This document shows positions 2,598-9,600 of a stretch of 64,000 nt of DNA, in pieces (the stretch's first letter is position 1; each line of letters begins with the position of its first letter). The notes below the pieces were generated by a model, which was not told where the DNA came from, did no database searches, and was given only the letters and a program-made list of their open reading frames with translations. The translations under genes were made by a program, and so were the position numbers. The DNA comes from Fluviicola sp. GTDB taxonomy: Bacteria; Bacteroidota; Bacteroidia; Flavobacteriales_D; Crocinitomicaceae. The DNA lies in the NCBI RefSeq assembly GCF_029266855.1, contig NZ_JAQSWB010000007.1, positions 124,001-188,000 on the forward strand, given 5' to 3'.

Positions 2598-3884
2598 CTA
2601 TTCTTCCTCCGCAAAGAAATTTTTACTCTTTGTTAACAAAGTATCAAAGAAACTTCCTCTTGTTTTCGTTGAGTGTCCTTTCACTTGTCCGGTTACGGAC
2701 TCTACTTGTTTCTGAGGCACTTCATTCTCGAATCCTTTCATCACCAATCCGATTCCCGTAGCATACATCGGAGATGTAATAGCTTCTATCGTATTTGTCG
2801 ACGCCAAATGTTCTGTCGGAAGACCAATTCGAGTTGTCATTCCGGTCATGTACTCGAATAACTGCGTGATGTGTTTCAATTGAGATCCACCACCGGTAAC
2901 GACGATACCTGCAATCATTTTCTTCTCATATCCGGAGTTCACGATTTCATAATGAACATGCTCGATGATTTCTTCCATACGGGCCTGAATAATGCTCGCC
3001 AAATTACGAAGCGTAATTTCCTTCGGGTCTCTTCCACGCAATCCGGGAATACAAACCACTTCTGTTTCCAGGCTTTCAGATGCAAGGGCAGAACCGAACT
3101 TCACTTTCAATGCTTCAGCATGACGTCGAAGAATGGTACATCCTTCCTTAATATCATCTGTAATCACGTTACCACCGAAAGGAATTACTGCTGTATGACG
3201 AATGACTCCTTCATGGAAAATTGCTACATCAGTTGTTCCACCGCCGATATCAACCAAAACAACACCGGCCTCCTTCTCTTCATCATTCAAAACAGCATCC
3301 GCAGAAGCGATTGGTTCCAGGATGATATCTTTCACCTGAAGTCCTGCTTTGTCTACACAAACCTTAATATTCTTCGCTGCATTGATCTGACCAGTAATAA
3401 TATGAAAGTTTGCTTCCAAACGAACTCCCATCATACCGATCGGGTCAATAATCCCCTGCTCATTATCAACGATATATTCCTGGGGCAGCACATGGATAAT
3501 TTCTTCTCCCGGAGGCATTACCAGCTTATACATATCATCGATAAGCGCATTGATATCTTTCTGGGAAATCTCTACTTCCGGGTTGTTCCGGGTGTAAATA
3601 CCCCTGTGTTGTAAACTTTTGATGTGTTGTCCTGCAATTCCGACATTCACTACGCGAATAATCAGATCTGCATCTACACGGTTTTGAGCTTCTTCTACAG
3701 CAGTTTTGATAGATTGTACTGTTTTCTCAATATTGGACACGATTCCTCTGGCAACACCCAAAGACTCGCTTTTTCCCATGGAAATAATTTCAATTTTCCC
3801 ATGTTCATTTTTCGTACCGACTAAACATGCAATTTTAGTGGTCCCAATATCCAATCCAACTACAATCTTTTTTCCCACTGACAT
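2598..3884 (-). CDS. ftsA: cell division protein FtsA
   Basis: FtsA is the actin-like ATPase that tethers FtsZ filaments to the inner membrane and recruits later divisome proteins. The 428-residue product has the phosphate-1 motif 'VGLDIGTTKIACLVG' at the start and phosphate-2 'VLVDIGGGTTDVAIF' near residue 210. The tail 'SFFDTLLTKSKNFFAEEE' fits the amphipathic membrane-binding helix. It directly precedes ftsZ, as is usual. It does not follow ftsQ directly: a divergent two-component system of 2.6 kb and two non-coding gaps lie between, so ftsA probably needs its own promoter in the 377-base upstream gap. Confidence 0.98.
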   Translation of the reverse strand: MSVGKKIVVGLDIGTTKIACLVGTKNEHGKIEIISMGKSESLGVARGIVSNIEKTVQSIKTAVEEAQNRVDADLIIRVVNVGIAGQHIKSLQHRGIYTRNNPEVEISQKDINALIDDMYKLVMPPGEEIIHVLPQEYIVDNEQGIIDPIGMMGVRLEANFHIITGQINAAKNIKVCVDKAGLQVKDIILEPIASADAVLNDEEKEAGVVLVDIGGGTTDVAIFHEGVIRHTAVIPFGGNVITDDIKEGCTILRRHAEALKVKFGSALASESLETEVVCIPGLRGRDPKEITLRNLASIIQARMEEIIEHVHYEIVNSGYEKKMIAGIVVTGGGSQLKHITQLFEYMTGMTTRIGLPTEHLASTNTIEAITSPMYATGIGLVMKGFENEVPQKQVESVTGQVKGHSTKTRGSFFDTLLTKSKNFFAEEE

Positions 3885-4261
3885 AAACTCTTCTTTTGCT
3901 TCAACCTACATCCCGTTTTGACCGGGATTAAATTTGCCGTTTTGAAACTTGATTAATCGGATTTTCATCCGCTTATTTCTTGTCTTTATCGGGTAAAAAT
4001 CAGCACATATCGATGTTTTGGTTCTTACCTATAATACGGTATGTACAAACTTAAATTTTATTTGGTCGCGTTCTTCGTGAATTTAGAATACTTATTAAAC
4101 AAGTATTGTTAATAAAGACAGTGCTGATTTTTAGGTAAAACCTTTGTAAAGGCCAGCAAAAACAGCCCGCTTCAACTATTTAGTTAATTATCAAACTGTT
4201 TATAATTTTAAAATAAAAATTTTATGTAATTTTAATAGGACCCACAAATTAATTATTTACC
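3885..4261. other. divergent intergenic region between ftsA and the sensor kinase gene
   Basis: These 377 AT-rich bases lie between the start codons of ftsA (minus) and the kinase (plus), so both promoters should be here. Visible structures are ATCCCG-7-CGGGAT (3911-3929), a perfect 13-base inverted pair TAAAAATCAGCAC (3994-4006) and GTGCTGATTTTTA (4121-4133), and AATACTT-7-AAGTATT (4088-4108). No open reading frame of note and no clear TAnnTTTG element were found. Confidence 0.6.
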
Positions 4262-6229
4262 ATGCTACAACGACTTTCAATAGTCTTACTACTCTTGTTG
4301 ATTTCCCAGGTATTAAATGCTCAGAAAACAGACCTGGAGAAAATTGAAAATTTGAAGATCCGAATTAAGCAAGCGACCTATTATGACAGTTCAACGGTGT
4401 TTTCACTTGGGAGACAATGCATTCAGCTTGCCAAAAAACTTAATAAAGAGAATGAAATCGGCTATGTTTATCAGTATTACGGAAGTTTCAACTACTATGC
4501 AAACAAACTGGGTGAAGCTAAAAAGTATTACTATAAAAGCATTGCCATCGGAGAAAAAACAAAAGACTTCAAACTCATCAATTCCACGAAGATCAGGCTC
4601 AACTACTTAACCCTGGACCAGGATGTGCTAAAGGCTGAAAGTGGATTCAAACAGCTTTTACAGGACGCGAAAAAAGGAAATTATATTGAAAATCAGCTTG
4701 AGATCTATAATGGATTCGGCATCATGTACGAAACCCGACTGATGTATGATAAAGCCACGGAAAGTTACTTGAAAGGACTGCGCATTTCAGAAAAGCATCA
4801 TCAAAAATTTGCTACCGGTTATTTGTTGAATAACCTGGCACTTCTCAAATTAAAAGCAAAAAAATACGAAGAAGCAAAAAAAGACCTGGAGCGTGCGCTG
4901 ATTCTCTCAACCGAAACCAATGAATCACGCCTGCGATTAAATGTATTAAATAACCTGGGCCTGGTCACCCATGAAATTAAAGATTTTCAGGGTTCCGTTA
5001 TTCATTACAAACAAACGGTTACTGAAGCCAAAAAGATCGGTTTTCCATCCGGAATACTTGCTGCTTACATCAATTTATCCTCGTCTTACCTGGACAATAA
5101 ACAGTTATCCGAAGCTTCCAAAAGTTGTGATTCAGCTCTTATAATTGTTCAAACATACCGCGACCCTCTTTTCCTGGTCAATGCTTATCTTATGAGAGGA
5201 ATGGTCTCGACGGAGCAAAAGGATTTTCAAACAGCAGAAAGATGCATTGACTCTATCCGGTTTTTCCTCCAATCATACAACGACCCCAATTTTCGGAAAG
5301 AATTGATCGCATTACAGTCAAAATTGGCCTCTGCCCAGGGGAACTTTAAGCTCGCTTATGAACTTGAGCGCCAATACAGCAGTTTATCAGACAGTATCCG
5401 GGAAGTTTCCAATGAAAATGAACAAATGAGATTGCAAACCATTTATGGAAAGGAACGTCTTGAAAACGAACTCACCGACTCCAAACAACGGAATAAAATC
5501 TTACGGACCAAAAGCGAATTGAAATCGGCCAATTACCGCTTTACTTTCCTGGTGATTTTTTCCCTGTTCCTGCTCGTCCTTGCTGCGATCTACATTTATA
5601 ATGTCCGAAAATCACGTAAAATCAAATCTGTTTTTTCGCAAAAGTTAATTGAGCAAATCGATGCGGAACGTTCCCGGATCTCCAAAGACCTGCACGACGA
5701 CATTGGCCAAAGTTTAGCTGTAGTTAAGTCAAAACTCAATTTATTTACGACGGGAAAGATTTCGCAATTGGAAGGTGTTGACGCAGAGATCGGTGACATT
5801 TTGGAACAAACAAGAGTACTCAGCCATCAGCTTCATCCAACAGCTTTAGAAAAAATAGGTTTGGAGCGCGCATTGATTTCAATTCTTGAGAAAACGCAAT
5901 CCGCCACAGACATGCTTTGCAATTTCGACTTCGATCCGGGAGGAAGAACCATTGACTTGGAAACCAGTTCACAAATCTATCGCATCATCCAGGAATGCAT
6001 ATCCAATACCATTAAGCACGCTCATGCGAGTGCTTTAAAGGTTAGCGTAGAAGAAAAGAACGGAGAACTGATCGTTCAATACAGGGACAATGGAATTGGA
6101 ATATCCGGATCCCAGGATAAATTGGGCTTGGGACTTTTAACTATCCAGGAAAGAACAGCTATAATAGGCGGGCGATTAGATTTAAAAACCGGAACAAACA
6201 AGGGAATTTCACTGACAATAACTATTTAG
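4262..6229 (+). CDS. TPR-containing sensor histidine kinase (HisKA_3/NarX-DegS type)
   Basis: The 655-residue protein starts with a signal peptide ('LSIVLLLLLISQVLNAQ'). A long periplasmic region of tetratricopeptide-like helices follows (about 40-390), then a coiled coil and one membrane segment ('FTFLVIFSLFLLVLAAIYIYNV', about 427-448). The dimerisation and phosphorylation motif 'ISKDLHDDIGQSLAVVKSKL' has its histidine near residue 478, and the ATPase motifs are 'IIQECISNTIKHAHA' and 'GLGLLTIQERTAIIGG'. This is the kinase type that pairs with NarL/LuxR regulators, and exactly such a gene follows at zero spacing. The signal is unknown; the periplasmic TPRs suggest a protein or envelope cue. 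Its place inside the dcw cluster is unusual. Confidence 0.93.
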   Translation: MLQRLSIVLLLLLISQVLNAQKTDLEKIENLKIRIKQATYYDSSTVFSLGRQCIQLAKKLNKENEIGYVYQYYGSFNYYANKLGEAKKYYYKSIAIGEKTKDFKLINSTKIRLNYLTLDQDVLKAESGFKQLLQDAKKGNYIENQLEIYNGFGIMYETRLMYDKATESYLKGLRISEKHHQKFATGYLLNNLALLKLKAKKYEEAKKDLERALILSTETNESRLRLNVLNNLGLVTHEIKDFQGSVIHYKQTVTEAKKIGFPSGILAAYINLSSSYLDNKQLSEASKSCDSALIIVQTYRDPLFLVNAYLMRGMVSTEQKDFQTAERCIDSIRFFLQSYNDPNFRKELIALQSKLASAQGNFKLAYELERQYSSLSDSIREVSNENEQMRLQTIYGKERLENELTDSKQRNKILRTKSELKSANYRFTFLVIFSLFLLVLAAIYIYNVRKSRKIKSVFSQKLIEQIDAERSRISKDLHDDIGQSLAVVKSKLNLFTTGKISQLEGVDAEIGDILEQTRVLSHQLHPTALEKIGLERALISILEKTQSATDMLCNFDFDPGGRTIDLETSSQIYRIIQECISNTIKHAHASALKVSVEEKNGELIVQYRDNGIGISGSQDKLGLGLLTIQERTAIIGGRLDLKTGTNKGISLTITI

Positions 6230-6889
6230 ATGAAAGTAATTTTAGCAGATGATCATCCTATATTCAGAAGTGGTCTAAAGTTTCTTCTGGAATCTTCTTT
6301 CGACCATGTTGAAATTCAAGCCTACGAAAATGGTGCACAGGTCGTAGACAATATTCCCTCTTTCAAACCGGATATTGTACTGCTTGATATAGATATGCCG
6401 GTCCAGAACGGATTGGAAACCTGCTCGATTATCAAACAGCAATACCCCGATTTAGCAGTCATTATTCTTTCCATTCACAAAACCACGGATGTTATTAAAC
6501 TCGCCTTTTATAATGGCGCGCGGGGATACCTTATCAAAGACAATACTTCAGAAGAAATCGTAGAATGCATTAACTGGGTAAGGGAAGGGAAAACCTATTT
6601 ACCGCTTGTATTAAGAAATCAGCACAACAAACGCGAGGTTGATCCGAAAATGGAATTAATCACAGATGAAATCAGTTCGCTCACACCGACTGAACTGAAG
6701 GTTTTGAAACTTGTAAGCAAAAAGTACTCCAGTAAAGAAATCGCCAACCTGCTCTTTGTATCTCCGAAATCAGTTGAGAATTACAGATCGCGGATCTGCA
6801 AAAAGCTGAACCTGGACGCCCGGAACAACAGTCTGATCCTTTGGGTTATGGAAAACAAATTTCTCCTGGATTCGGATCAGCTTCAATAA
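6230..6889 (+). CDS. NarL/LuxR-family response regulator
   Basis: The start codon immediately follows the kinase stop, so the two are co-translated as a cognate pair. The receiver domain (about 1-120) has the acidic pair 'ADDH' and the phospho-acceptor Asp53 in 'VLLDIDMPVQNG'. The C-terminal helix-turn-helix (about 149-192) shows the LuxR signature 'LTPTELKVLKLVSKKYSSKEI' and 'SPKSVENYRSRICKKL'. It should bind DNA when phosphorylated. Its targets are unknown, and neighbouring ftsA or ftsQ are candidates by position only. No terminator is obvious after the gene. Confidence 0.93.
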   Translation: MKVILADDHPIFRSGLKFLLESSFDHVEIQAYENGAQVVDNIPSFKPDIVLLDIDMPVQNGLETCSIIKQQYPDLAVIILSIHKTTDVIKLAFYNGARGYLIKDNTSEEIVECINWVREGKTYLPLVLRNQHNKREVDPKMELITDEISSLTPTELKVLKLVSKKYSSKEIANLLFVSPKSVENYRSRICKKLNLDARNNSLILWVMENKFLLDSDQLQ

Positions 6890-7427
6890 TACAACAAAGA
6901 GATCCTATTTTCATAAAACCTCTCTGCTTCGGGGCATAGTTGTGTGTGCTTATATTTTTGTGCAATAGTAAGTTAAATGTGGTGTAAATCAATCCAATGG
7001 AAAAATCAGTATAAATCAAGACTGCATTAGGTACGCAACGTGCCCCCACTGGGAATATCAAATCGCCGAAAGCGTGAATATAACCAGTAGGAGCTTTAAT
7101 TGTTGCTTGCAACCATTCACTTTGGCATCTCTCCATTTTCACCTCCTTGACTCAAGAAGTGTCCACTACCAAAATTGAACAGTTTACAGATGATTTAACG
7201 TAAAATCCTGTTGTGATGCAGAACTAAAATACACAACGTAGAAAAAAGTAGTAGTAGATTATTACGTGTCATCTATGTTTTGTAAACCCTAATTTTAATT
7301 TCTTAAAGCAAATCTAAATTTACAAAAGCATATATTAAAGAGGGCTGGCCCCTCAAAAAAAAGTTACTAAACTTTAGCAGTAAGAAATTACAACAAGATT
7401 TTGTTTCTTCTGTTCAAAAACAAACAA
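6890..7427. other. 538-base intergenic region between the response regulator and ftsQ
   Basis: The convergent ends of the response regulator (plus) and ftsQ (minus) border an AT-rich stretch with no convincing gene. It holds a TAnnTTTG-like word near 6951-6960 (TATATTTTTG) and a small GC stem GAGGG/CCCTC around 7340-7356, flanked by an A8 run. A 98-codon minus-strand frame overlaps the regulator gene, but I do not accept it as a gene. Confidence 0.5.
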
Positions 7428-8234
7428 TTAAAGCGTGTCTCGCAGGTATGTACACACTACCTGATTGCGGTATTTTAAGTTGATTGTTTTATATTTATTC
7501 CATCCAACATAAGGTAAACCGTTGGTATAAAAAACAATTAATTTTTTCAGTTTTTCCCTTACATCACGCTCTGTTGGAGCCGGACCCAACACAATTCGCT
7601 GAGCACCAACTCGCGGGATTAGAATAAAATCTCCCCACCTGTCCCTATGCACCTGGCTGATTTGAGCCGTTAAAAAAGGATTTTGATGAATAACCTTAGC
7701 TATGTGAAAGATCTCATCCAAGCTCCGCTCATTCTTCAATTTCGGATCCGACTCAATATCCTCAACAAGCAAGGTATCAGACTTATCTTTGATGTTCCCG
7801 GTGAAAACCAGGATCCGGGCAGTAAAATTAGGAGTTGGATTCATTGTTGCTCCTTTCGAATCCACATAAAAACTTTCCCCGAACTGATTAAAGATCCGTG
7901 CATATGGCTGCCGGATTTTTAATTTGATTCCCCAATTCCCTCCTAATTGTTTGTACACATTTACTTCTTCAACCTCGTGCATCTTTCGAATATTCTCTTC
8001 GATTGCAGCGGTATTCAAATTCTTCATTAATTGATTCGGGTAAAAGAGATTCATCCTTTTCAAACGCACCAACAATTCGGTTTCGGTCAAAAATGCATTC
8101 TCATCAACCACAGAAATAGAAACATTGGGATTCAAAACGACTGCTTCATCCTGGTTTTTACGTGCTAAAAACAGCACCCCAATGATGGCAGCAGCAAATA
8201 AAGCCCAGGCAGCTATTTTCAGTTTCTCTTTCAA
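7428..8234 (-). CDS. ftsQ: cell division protein FtsQ
   Basis: FtsQ (DivIB) is a bitopic inner-membrane divisome protein that links early and late division factors. The 268-residue product has a short basic N-terminus, one membrane segment ('IAAWALFAAAIIGVLFLA', about 7-24) and a periplasmic part beginning with a POTRA-like stretch ('FLTETELLVRLKRMNLFYPNQ'). FtsQ is poorly conserved, so position after murC supports the call strongly. No ATG is available; the TTG at 8234 lies one base after the murC stop and is the plausible start. In most genomes ftsA follows directly, but here it does not. Confidence 0.92.
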   Translation of the reverse strand: MKEKLKIAAWALFAAAIIGVLFLARKNQDEAVVLNPNVSISVVDENAFLTETELLVRLKRMNLFYPNQLMKNLNTAAIEENIRKMHEVEEVNVYKQLGGNWGIKLKIRQPYARIFNQFGESFYVDSKGATMNPTPNFTARILVFTGNIKDKSDTLLVEDIESDPKLKNERSLDEIFHIAKVIHQNPFLTAQISQVHRDRWGDFILIPRVGAQRIVLGPAPTERDVREKLKKLIVFYTNGLPYVGWNKYKTINLKYRNQVVCTYLRDTL

Positions 8235-8235
8235 C

Positions 8236-9600
8236 TTAATTTTTTTCTAATCTTTTTTTCATTTCAGGAACAATCCGGTCAATATCTCCTGCTCCGATCG
8301 TCAAAACAACGCCTTCTTTAATCGTGCTTGCGAATTCCAAAACTTCTTCCGGGGATTTCAGGCGCGCTTTTTTACCGATTTTACGCACCAATTCATCACT
8401 GGTAACACCGGGAATCGGCTCCTCTCTCGCCGGGTAAATGGGCATAATAATCGCTTCATCCAATTTAGCAAGCTCACGTACAAACCCTTCTTCAAAATCT
8501 CTTGTCCGAGAAAACAAGTGAGGCTGAAAAACACCGATCACTGCCTTGTTGGGATAAAGCAAACGGATGGATGAAACAAGCGCTTCAATTTCGGTCGGAT
8601 GATGTGCATAATCATCAATATAAATCAATTTTTCCGTGCGTACCTGGTATTCAAAGCGTCTTTTAACACCTTTGAAATTTTGCAGTCCGGAACGAATTTC
8701 ATTTTCGGAAAGTCCCAATTCTTTACACATAGCTGCAACTGCCAAAGCGTTTTCTGCATTGTGAATGCCCGGCAGCCCTAAAGCCACCTCTTCCCAAACT
8801 TCACCATTCATATGAATATCCACGAAAAACTGACCTTTTTCATAATGCAGATCCGTTCCGTTTATCTGAGCACCCGGCTCATTGATTCCATAAGAAATCC
8901 CTCTAAATCCGGTTTGACGAAGCGGAAGGCCATATTTATAAATAAGCAGCTGATTCTCCTTGTGCTTATCGGCATATTCCTGGAAGCCTTCGATGAATAA
9001 TTCCTTGGTGCCATAAATATCCAAATGATCCGGATCCATTGCGGTAATAATACTTGCAAAAGGCTTCAATCGTAGGAAGGAACGATCAAATTCGTCTGCC
9101 TCAATTACGGAATAATCTGCGGATGGTTCAACCAAGACATTCGATGAAAAATTAGAAGAAATCCCACCAAGAAAGGCCGAACATTTTAAAGGCGACTGAC
9201 TTAACACATAAGCAAGCATTGTTGAGGTGGTTGTTTTACCATGCGTTCCAGCAACTCCAAGACCTTTACTTGTTTGTGTGATCAAACCTAAGACCTCGCT
9301 GCGTTTTAATACCTTATGATTTTGCTGCACATAAACCAACTCCCCCATATTTTTAGGGATTGCAGGTGTATAAACCACCAGAGTTGAATCTGTCTCCTGG
9401 TACTCCTCCGGAAGTTCGTTACCCAAATCACGGAAATGAATAGCAATGCCTTCTTTTTGCAATTCATCCGTTAAAGGAGAAGGAGTTTTGTCGTATCCGG
9501 CCACATCAAAACCTTTCGCTTTGAAATAGCGTGCCAGGGCCGACATTCCGATTCCGCCAATGCCTATGAAATAAAAGCGTTTTATGTTGTCCAATTCCAT
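8236..9600 (-). CDS. murC: UDP-N-acetylmuramate--L-alanine ligase MurC
   Basis: MurC adds the first amino acid, L-alanine, to UDP-MurNAc in the cytoplasm, using ATP. The 454-residue length is typical. Visible motifs are the N-terminal Rossmann-like 'GIGGIGMSALARYF' (13-26), the ATP loop 'GTHGKTTTS' (118-126), 'EADEFDRSFL', and 'DDYAHHPTEI' of the central and C-terminal domains. ATG start. It is followed one base later by ftsQ. A pair of inverted REP-like elements separates it from murG upstream, so the transcript carries hairpins at that junction. Confidence 0.98.
   Translation of the reverse strand: MELDNIKRFYFIGIGGIGMSALARYFKAKGFDVAGYDKTPSPLTDELQKEGIAIHFRDLGNELPEEYQETDSTLVVYTPAIPKNMGELVYVQQNHKVLKRSEVLGLITQTSKGLGVAGTHGKTTTSTMLAYVLSQSPLKCSAFLGGISSNFSSNVLVEPSADYSVIEADEFDRSFLRLKPFASIITAMDPDHLDIYGTKELFIEGFQEYADKHKENQLLIYKYGLPLRQTGFRGISYGINEPGAQINGTDLHYEKGQFFVDIHMNGEVWEEVALGLPGIHNAENALAVAAMCKELGLSENEIRSGLQNFKGVKRRFEYQVRTEKLIYIDDYAHHPTEIEALVSSIRLLYPNKAVIGVFQPHLFSRTRDFEEGFVRELAKLDEAIIMPIYPAREEPIPGVTSDELVRKIGKKARLKSPEEVLEFASTIKEGVVLTIGAGDIDRIVPEMKKRLEKN

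Follow-up and report, generated by a model that had tools for sequence, protein, structure and literature searches.

The window analyzed here, a 64,000-nucleotide stretch on contig 7 of a 4.3-Mb Fluviicola genome, carries dcw genes on its minus strand, namely ftsZ (989-2527), ftsA (2598-3884, with a Pfam FtsA match), ftsQ (7428-8234) and murC (8236-9600), with further minus-strand dcw genes beyond. Pfam gave no match for FtsQ, which was identified from its position between murC and ftsA and from the orthologs in the same position in relatives. A gap of 3,543 bp separates ftsQ from ftsA and contains, in the direction opposite to both, genes for a histidine kinase (4262-6229, plus strand, 655 amino acids) and a NarL/FixJ-type response regulator (6230-6889, plus strand, 219 amino acids). 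The ORF coordinates and strands thus agreed exactly with the earlier note, which had described such a pair inside a split ftsQ/ftsA. Kinase and ftsA diverge from a common intergenic region (3885-4261). The earlier note had further called both flanking gaps non-coding; the regulator-ftsQ gap indeed holds no intact gene, but most of it (6890-7427) is the frameshifted and deleted remnant of a secreted-protein gene.

Pfam matches above the cut-offs assigned TPR, HisKA_3 and HATPase_c domains to the kinase and Response_reg and GerE domains to the regulator. The kinase begins with a hydrophobic or signal segment followed by the TPR region, which is likely periplasmic, and one strong transmembrane segment (residues ~423-449) follows the TPR part. 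The catalytic motifs of both partners are intact. In the kinase these are the phospho-acceptor H478 within the HisKA_3 motif DLHDDIGQ (DLHDD at 476), an N-box (ECISNT) at 578 and G-boxes at 608 and 622; with HisKA_3, the phospho-acceptor His and HATPase_c, it falls within the HisKA_3 (DesK/NarX-type) class, and the nearest solved structure to its core is DesK. The regulator, which has the conserved receiver Asp (D53) and a C-terminal GerE/LuxR-type helix-turn-helix, falls within the NarL/FixJ class, and its alignment with the nearest solved structure, NarL (1a04), spans nearly the full length. Because the kinase stop codon and the regulator start are contiguous, the two genes probably form one operon; no conserved terminator was found 3′ of the regulator, where hairpins vary between species. 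By these features the pair is a conventional membrane two-component system of ordinary components, a DesK-type kinase with a likely periplasmic TPR sensor and a NarL-type regulator.

Among characterized systems, FimS-FimR of Porphyromonas gingivalis is likewise a Bacteroidota system in which a sensor kinase with a periplasmic TPR region is coupled to its own transcriptional regulator (PMC11053733). The NCBIfam FimS model matched the Fluviicola kinase best in the TPR region (E 8e-14), but at 50.8 bits against a cut-off of 600 the match did not reach the equivalog level, and the Fluviicola pair is at a different locus with no link to fimbriae genes. DesK-DesR and NarX-NarL share the same catalytic core and regulator architecture, a HisKA_3 kinase with a GerE regulator, whereas the Fluviicola sensor is a TPR domain rather than a multi-transmembrane or nitrate-type one.

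The dcw gene order is one of the best conserved among bacteria. A survey of the order covered 140 genomes, and in 135 of them both murC and ftsA could be assigned to the same contig and strand. The murC-ftsA spacing was 762-1044 bp in all 126 scorable genomes outside the genus, leaving room for ftsQ and a short spacer only, while inside Fluviicola it ranged from 1,043 to 7,681 bp. The Fluviicola ftsQ-ftsA gap is therefore exceptional. A literature search returned no account of such an arrangement in Fluviicola. In one genome from another family of the order (G059), murC is inverted relative to ftsA and lies ~8 kb away (G059:C22:245074-255514), which is a different break of the dcw cluster; in the outgroup genome G069 the two genes are on different contigs.

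Eight of the 14 Fluviicola genomes (G000, G001, G002, G006, G007, G008, G012 and G013) carry the pair between ftsQ and ftsA. The earlier note had named absence of the insertion from all relatives as counting against its reading; in fact seven carry it, with orthologs 79-88% (kinase) and 89-94% (regulator) identical to those of the window. Since these orthologs occupy the same place in seven other genomes of the genus, two of them single-contig, the arrangement is neither chance nor an assembly effect; it is real, is shared across the clade and is of historical interest. Between kinase and ftsA all eight genomes have a spacer of 376-386 bp; between regulator and ftsQ its length ranges from 538 to 3,863 bp. 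Estimated dN/dS was about 0.04 for the kinase and about 0.02 for the regulator, with synonymous sites saturated or nearly so and few pairs scorable. With dS near saturation and dN/dS nevertheless this low, substitution patterns indicate that the pair is old at this site and under purifying selection.

Three congeners (G004, G009 and G011) have an orthologous pair elsewhere, with regulator identities of 61-63% and kinase identities of 43-46%, the orthology at this level resting on trees and on the synteny of the three relatives. At this old locus the pair is divergent to a 410-amino-acid sensor-kinase-like gene and, in G009 and G011, is followed by a 258-amino-acid gene and then a 428-amino-acid aminotransferase gene. 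The corresponding site was checked in five of the eight genomes with the pair at ftsQ-ftsA (G000, G002, G007, G012 and G013), and in each the 410- and 428-amino-acid genes stand directly side by side, without the pair. Both the kinase tree and the regulator tree place all Fluviicola copies together, with the copy of a same-family genome (G024) next, matching a species tree built from five dcw genes; support is modest in places (75 near the G013/G002 split in the species tree and 60-91 in some parts of the two gene trees). Because the old locus is emptied, the relatives' orthologs are still there and the gene and species trees agree, the distribution is best explained by vertical inheritance and a single move of the pair within the genome, in the ancestor of one branch of Fluviicola. 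The earlier suggestion that the system was inserted here is upheld by the same evidence. Had ftsQ-ftsA instead received a foreign pair horizontally, the native copy being lost in a separate event, the kinase identity of only 43-46% to the old-locus copies would be accounted for; both trees, however, join the copies with those of congeners and then of the same-family genome as the species tree does, and the regulator is 61-62% identical in G009 and G011 where FtsQ of the same genomes is 58-59% identical. Together with the emptied old locus, the trees make horizontal gain most improbable. In G003 the 410-amino-acid gene falls into two frames, possibly through a sequencing error in this draft genome, and the old locus has no pair (L082:1165-2270).

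One further genome, the small G005, which the species tree joins to G002 as its sister at full support, carries no pair. Its sequence jumps from just past ftsQ to 35 bp upstream of the position of the kinase ATG, and since homology resumes at that point we read the junction as the scar of a deletion by which the pair was lost cleanly.

The ftsQ-ftsA junction has also received an unrelated gene. In G002, G007 and G013 a gene for a secreted protein of 1,043-1,098 amino acids lies between ftsQ and the regulator and converges on the latter, and in G009 a 1,046-amino-acid counterpart lies between ftsQ and ftsA without the pair. Of this ~1,050-amino-acid gene the window retains, as remnants, the 5′ end with the sequence upstream of it (7028-7427, minus strand), in which the first about 82 codons are frameshifted (about 7033-7272), and, beyond a ~2.9-kb deletion, the 3′ flank (6893-6976, minus strand); the deletion breakpoint is common to four other genomes. 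A 98-amino-acid ORF (6846-7142) was rejected as a gene, having no Pfam match and reading through the remnant. From the distribution of gene and remnants it follows that the opening of the gap either preceded the arrival of the pair or was independent of it, and the secreted-protein gene probably opened the junction beforehand. A Y1/IS200-type transposase gene between the secreted-protein gene and ftsA in G009 (L076:1817-2278) points to repeated insertion at this joint. The pair might alternatively have regulated the adjoining ~1,050-amino-acid secreted-protein gene and be what is left of that module, as the gene converges on the regulator in three genomes and its remnant adjoins the pair in the other five. 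We consider this very unlikely, as G009 has the gene at ftsQ-ftsA while its pair is at the old locus, and five species have deleted the gene and kept the pair under strong purifying selection. The gene, of ~1,050-1,100 amino acids, is fast-changing (L075:1122-4460 and L076:2545-5685) and survives as remnants in six further genomes. The C-terminal domain of its product, without a match in Pfam or NCBIfam, recurs in many other Fluviicola proteins and is possibly a secretion signal.

Within the intergenic region, an 80-bp core upstream of ftsA (TTATTAACAAT..GTTTAATAAGTATTCTAAATTCACG ... TAAGTTTG; 4036-4115, minus strand) is conserved at 93% mean and 88% minimum identity among pair-bearing genomes and is single-copy in each genome tested. 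It includes an exact TAnnTTTG box (TAAGTTTG; 4046-4053, minus strand), a sequence described as the -7 consensus of sigma-A in flavobacteria (PMC9723704), and this box lies 168-178 bp upstream of the ftsA start in all eight pair-bearing genomes. The core of pair-less G005 is 89% identical to that of G002, within the range of the pair-bearing genomes. The elements TTATTAACAAT, AAGTAT and TAnnTTTG are likewise present in G009, G010 and G011, which either lack the pair or have it at another site and in which TATGTTTG occupies the position of the ftsA -7 box. The simplest reading of this conservation is that the block is an ftsA promoter older than the pair. On the other strand, a candidate kinase -7 box (TAnnTTTA; 4227-4234, plus strand) precedes the kinase ATG by 34-36 bp in each of the eight genomes, and the kinase thus likely has a promoter of its own. 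The two candidate boxes are about 174 bp apart, and the central part of the spacer shows essentially no conservation (mean 0.55).

Two candidate regulator sites were considered in this region. The palindrome AATACTTGTTTAATAAGTATT in the ftsA core was discarded, as G002 and G005 keep the rest of it but have a disrupted left arm, and the element is present in a genome without the pair. On the kinase side, the conserved motif TTCAACTA-N5-TTAATTA (4171-4193, plus strand) is possibly an activator or autoregulation site. It was rejected as a regulon marker, being exact only at the kinase-ftsA locus of three genomes; one-mismatch matches were no more numerous than those of a reversed-pattern control, and the motif was not found upstream of the old-locus kinases.

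The earlier note had proposed that the regulator may control ftsA or ftsQ. For ftsQ this finds no footing, as there is no promoter region in common and the regulator gene converges on ftsQ across the secreted-protein-gene remnant. For ftsA, the proposal would have the regulator bind the shared intergenic region and directly control ftsA-ftsZ, signaling the state of the envelope to division. The divergent genes with about 174 bp between their -7 boxes and a spacer length fixed in eight species would fit such control, and precedents exist in NarL-type RcsB, which is reported to act at the ftsA/ftsZ promoter in E. coli (PMC12607864, in a passage citing Carballes 1999), and in GluR of the Burkholderia glumae GluS-GluR system, which is reported to bind the ftsA and ftsZ promoter regions, a role established by mutation and gel shift (PMC8281045). 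The core is, however, conserved to the same degree after loss of the pair in G005, its elements persist in G009, G010 and G011, and the spacer middle is not maintained. A fixed spacer alongside saturated dS could reflect selection on the shared region, and two independent promoters would explain it too. Many NarL-type pairs, moreover, adjoin genes outside their control. The search of the ftsA promoter found no site specific to pair-bearing genomes; binding sites of NarL-type regulators are short and loose, and the regulator may bind even where no site is recognizable. Overall, nothing in the sequence speaks in favor of the regulator binding at ftsA; control of ftsA is possible, a functional link to division is not favored, and we regard direct regulation of ftsA-ftsZ as unlikely. 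That the relocated regulator was recruited in this Fluviicola branch to control ftsA-ftsZ from the shared region, so that division would respond to a periplasmic signal sensed by the TPR domain and the system would regulate the very dcw cluster that houses it, appears rather unlikely as well.

We consider it likely that the pair is a relocated two-component tenant beside a self-sufficient ftsA(Z) promoter. The sequences themselves show how the pair is built, its orthology, where it lay before and lies now, its loss from G005 and a promoter core conserved irrespective of the pair. On this basis the pair moved from between the 410-amino-acid sensor-kinase-like and 428-amino-acid aminotransferase genes into the ftsQ-ftsA junction, where it would run from its own putative promoter, divergent to the older one of ftsA(Z). 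The location would be tolerated because ftsA-ftsZ has its own promoter. The TPR domain may read a periplasmic cue, upon which the kinase would autophosphorylate at H478 and pass the phosphate to D53 of the regulator, and the regulator would dimerize and control its own operon and unlinked envelope or secretion targets.

In Fluviicola a gap has thus formed at the ftsQ-ftsA joint, taken up unrelated genes and lost part of them again, with ftsA keeping a strongly conserved promoter region of its own. This history amounts to a natural experiment that asks if ftsA-ftsZ needs to share a transcript with the upstream cluster. Should the regulator act on ftsA, the locus would offer a compact test of environment-to-division signaling in Bacteroidota. 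Two-component control of ftsA would be no new principle by analogy with the E. coli and B. glumae systems; the novelty would lie in the position of the pair inside the dcw cluster. RcsC-RcsB shares a NarL-type regulator, acting on ftsAZ in E. coli according to the passage cited above and hypothetical in that role in Fluviicola. The rcs genes lie outside the dcw cluster, whereas the Fluviicola pair lies inside it. For GluS-GluR the role at ftsA and ftsZ is established by mutation and gel shift, whereas for the Fluviicola pair it is hypothetical. Among the records compared, the complete chromosome CP034120.1 (L088), deposited as 'Glaciecola amylolytica THG-3.7', falls inside Fluviicola in the dcw tree and is probably a mislabeled record.
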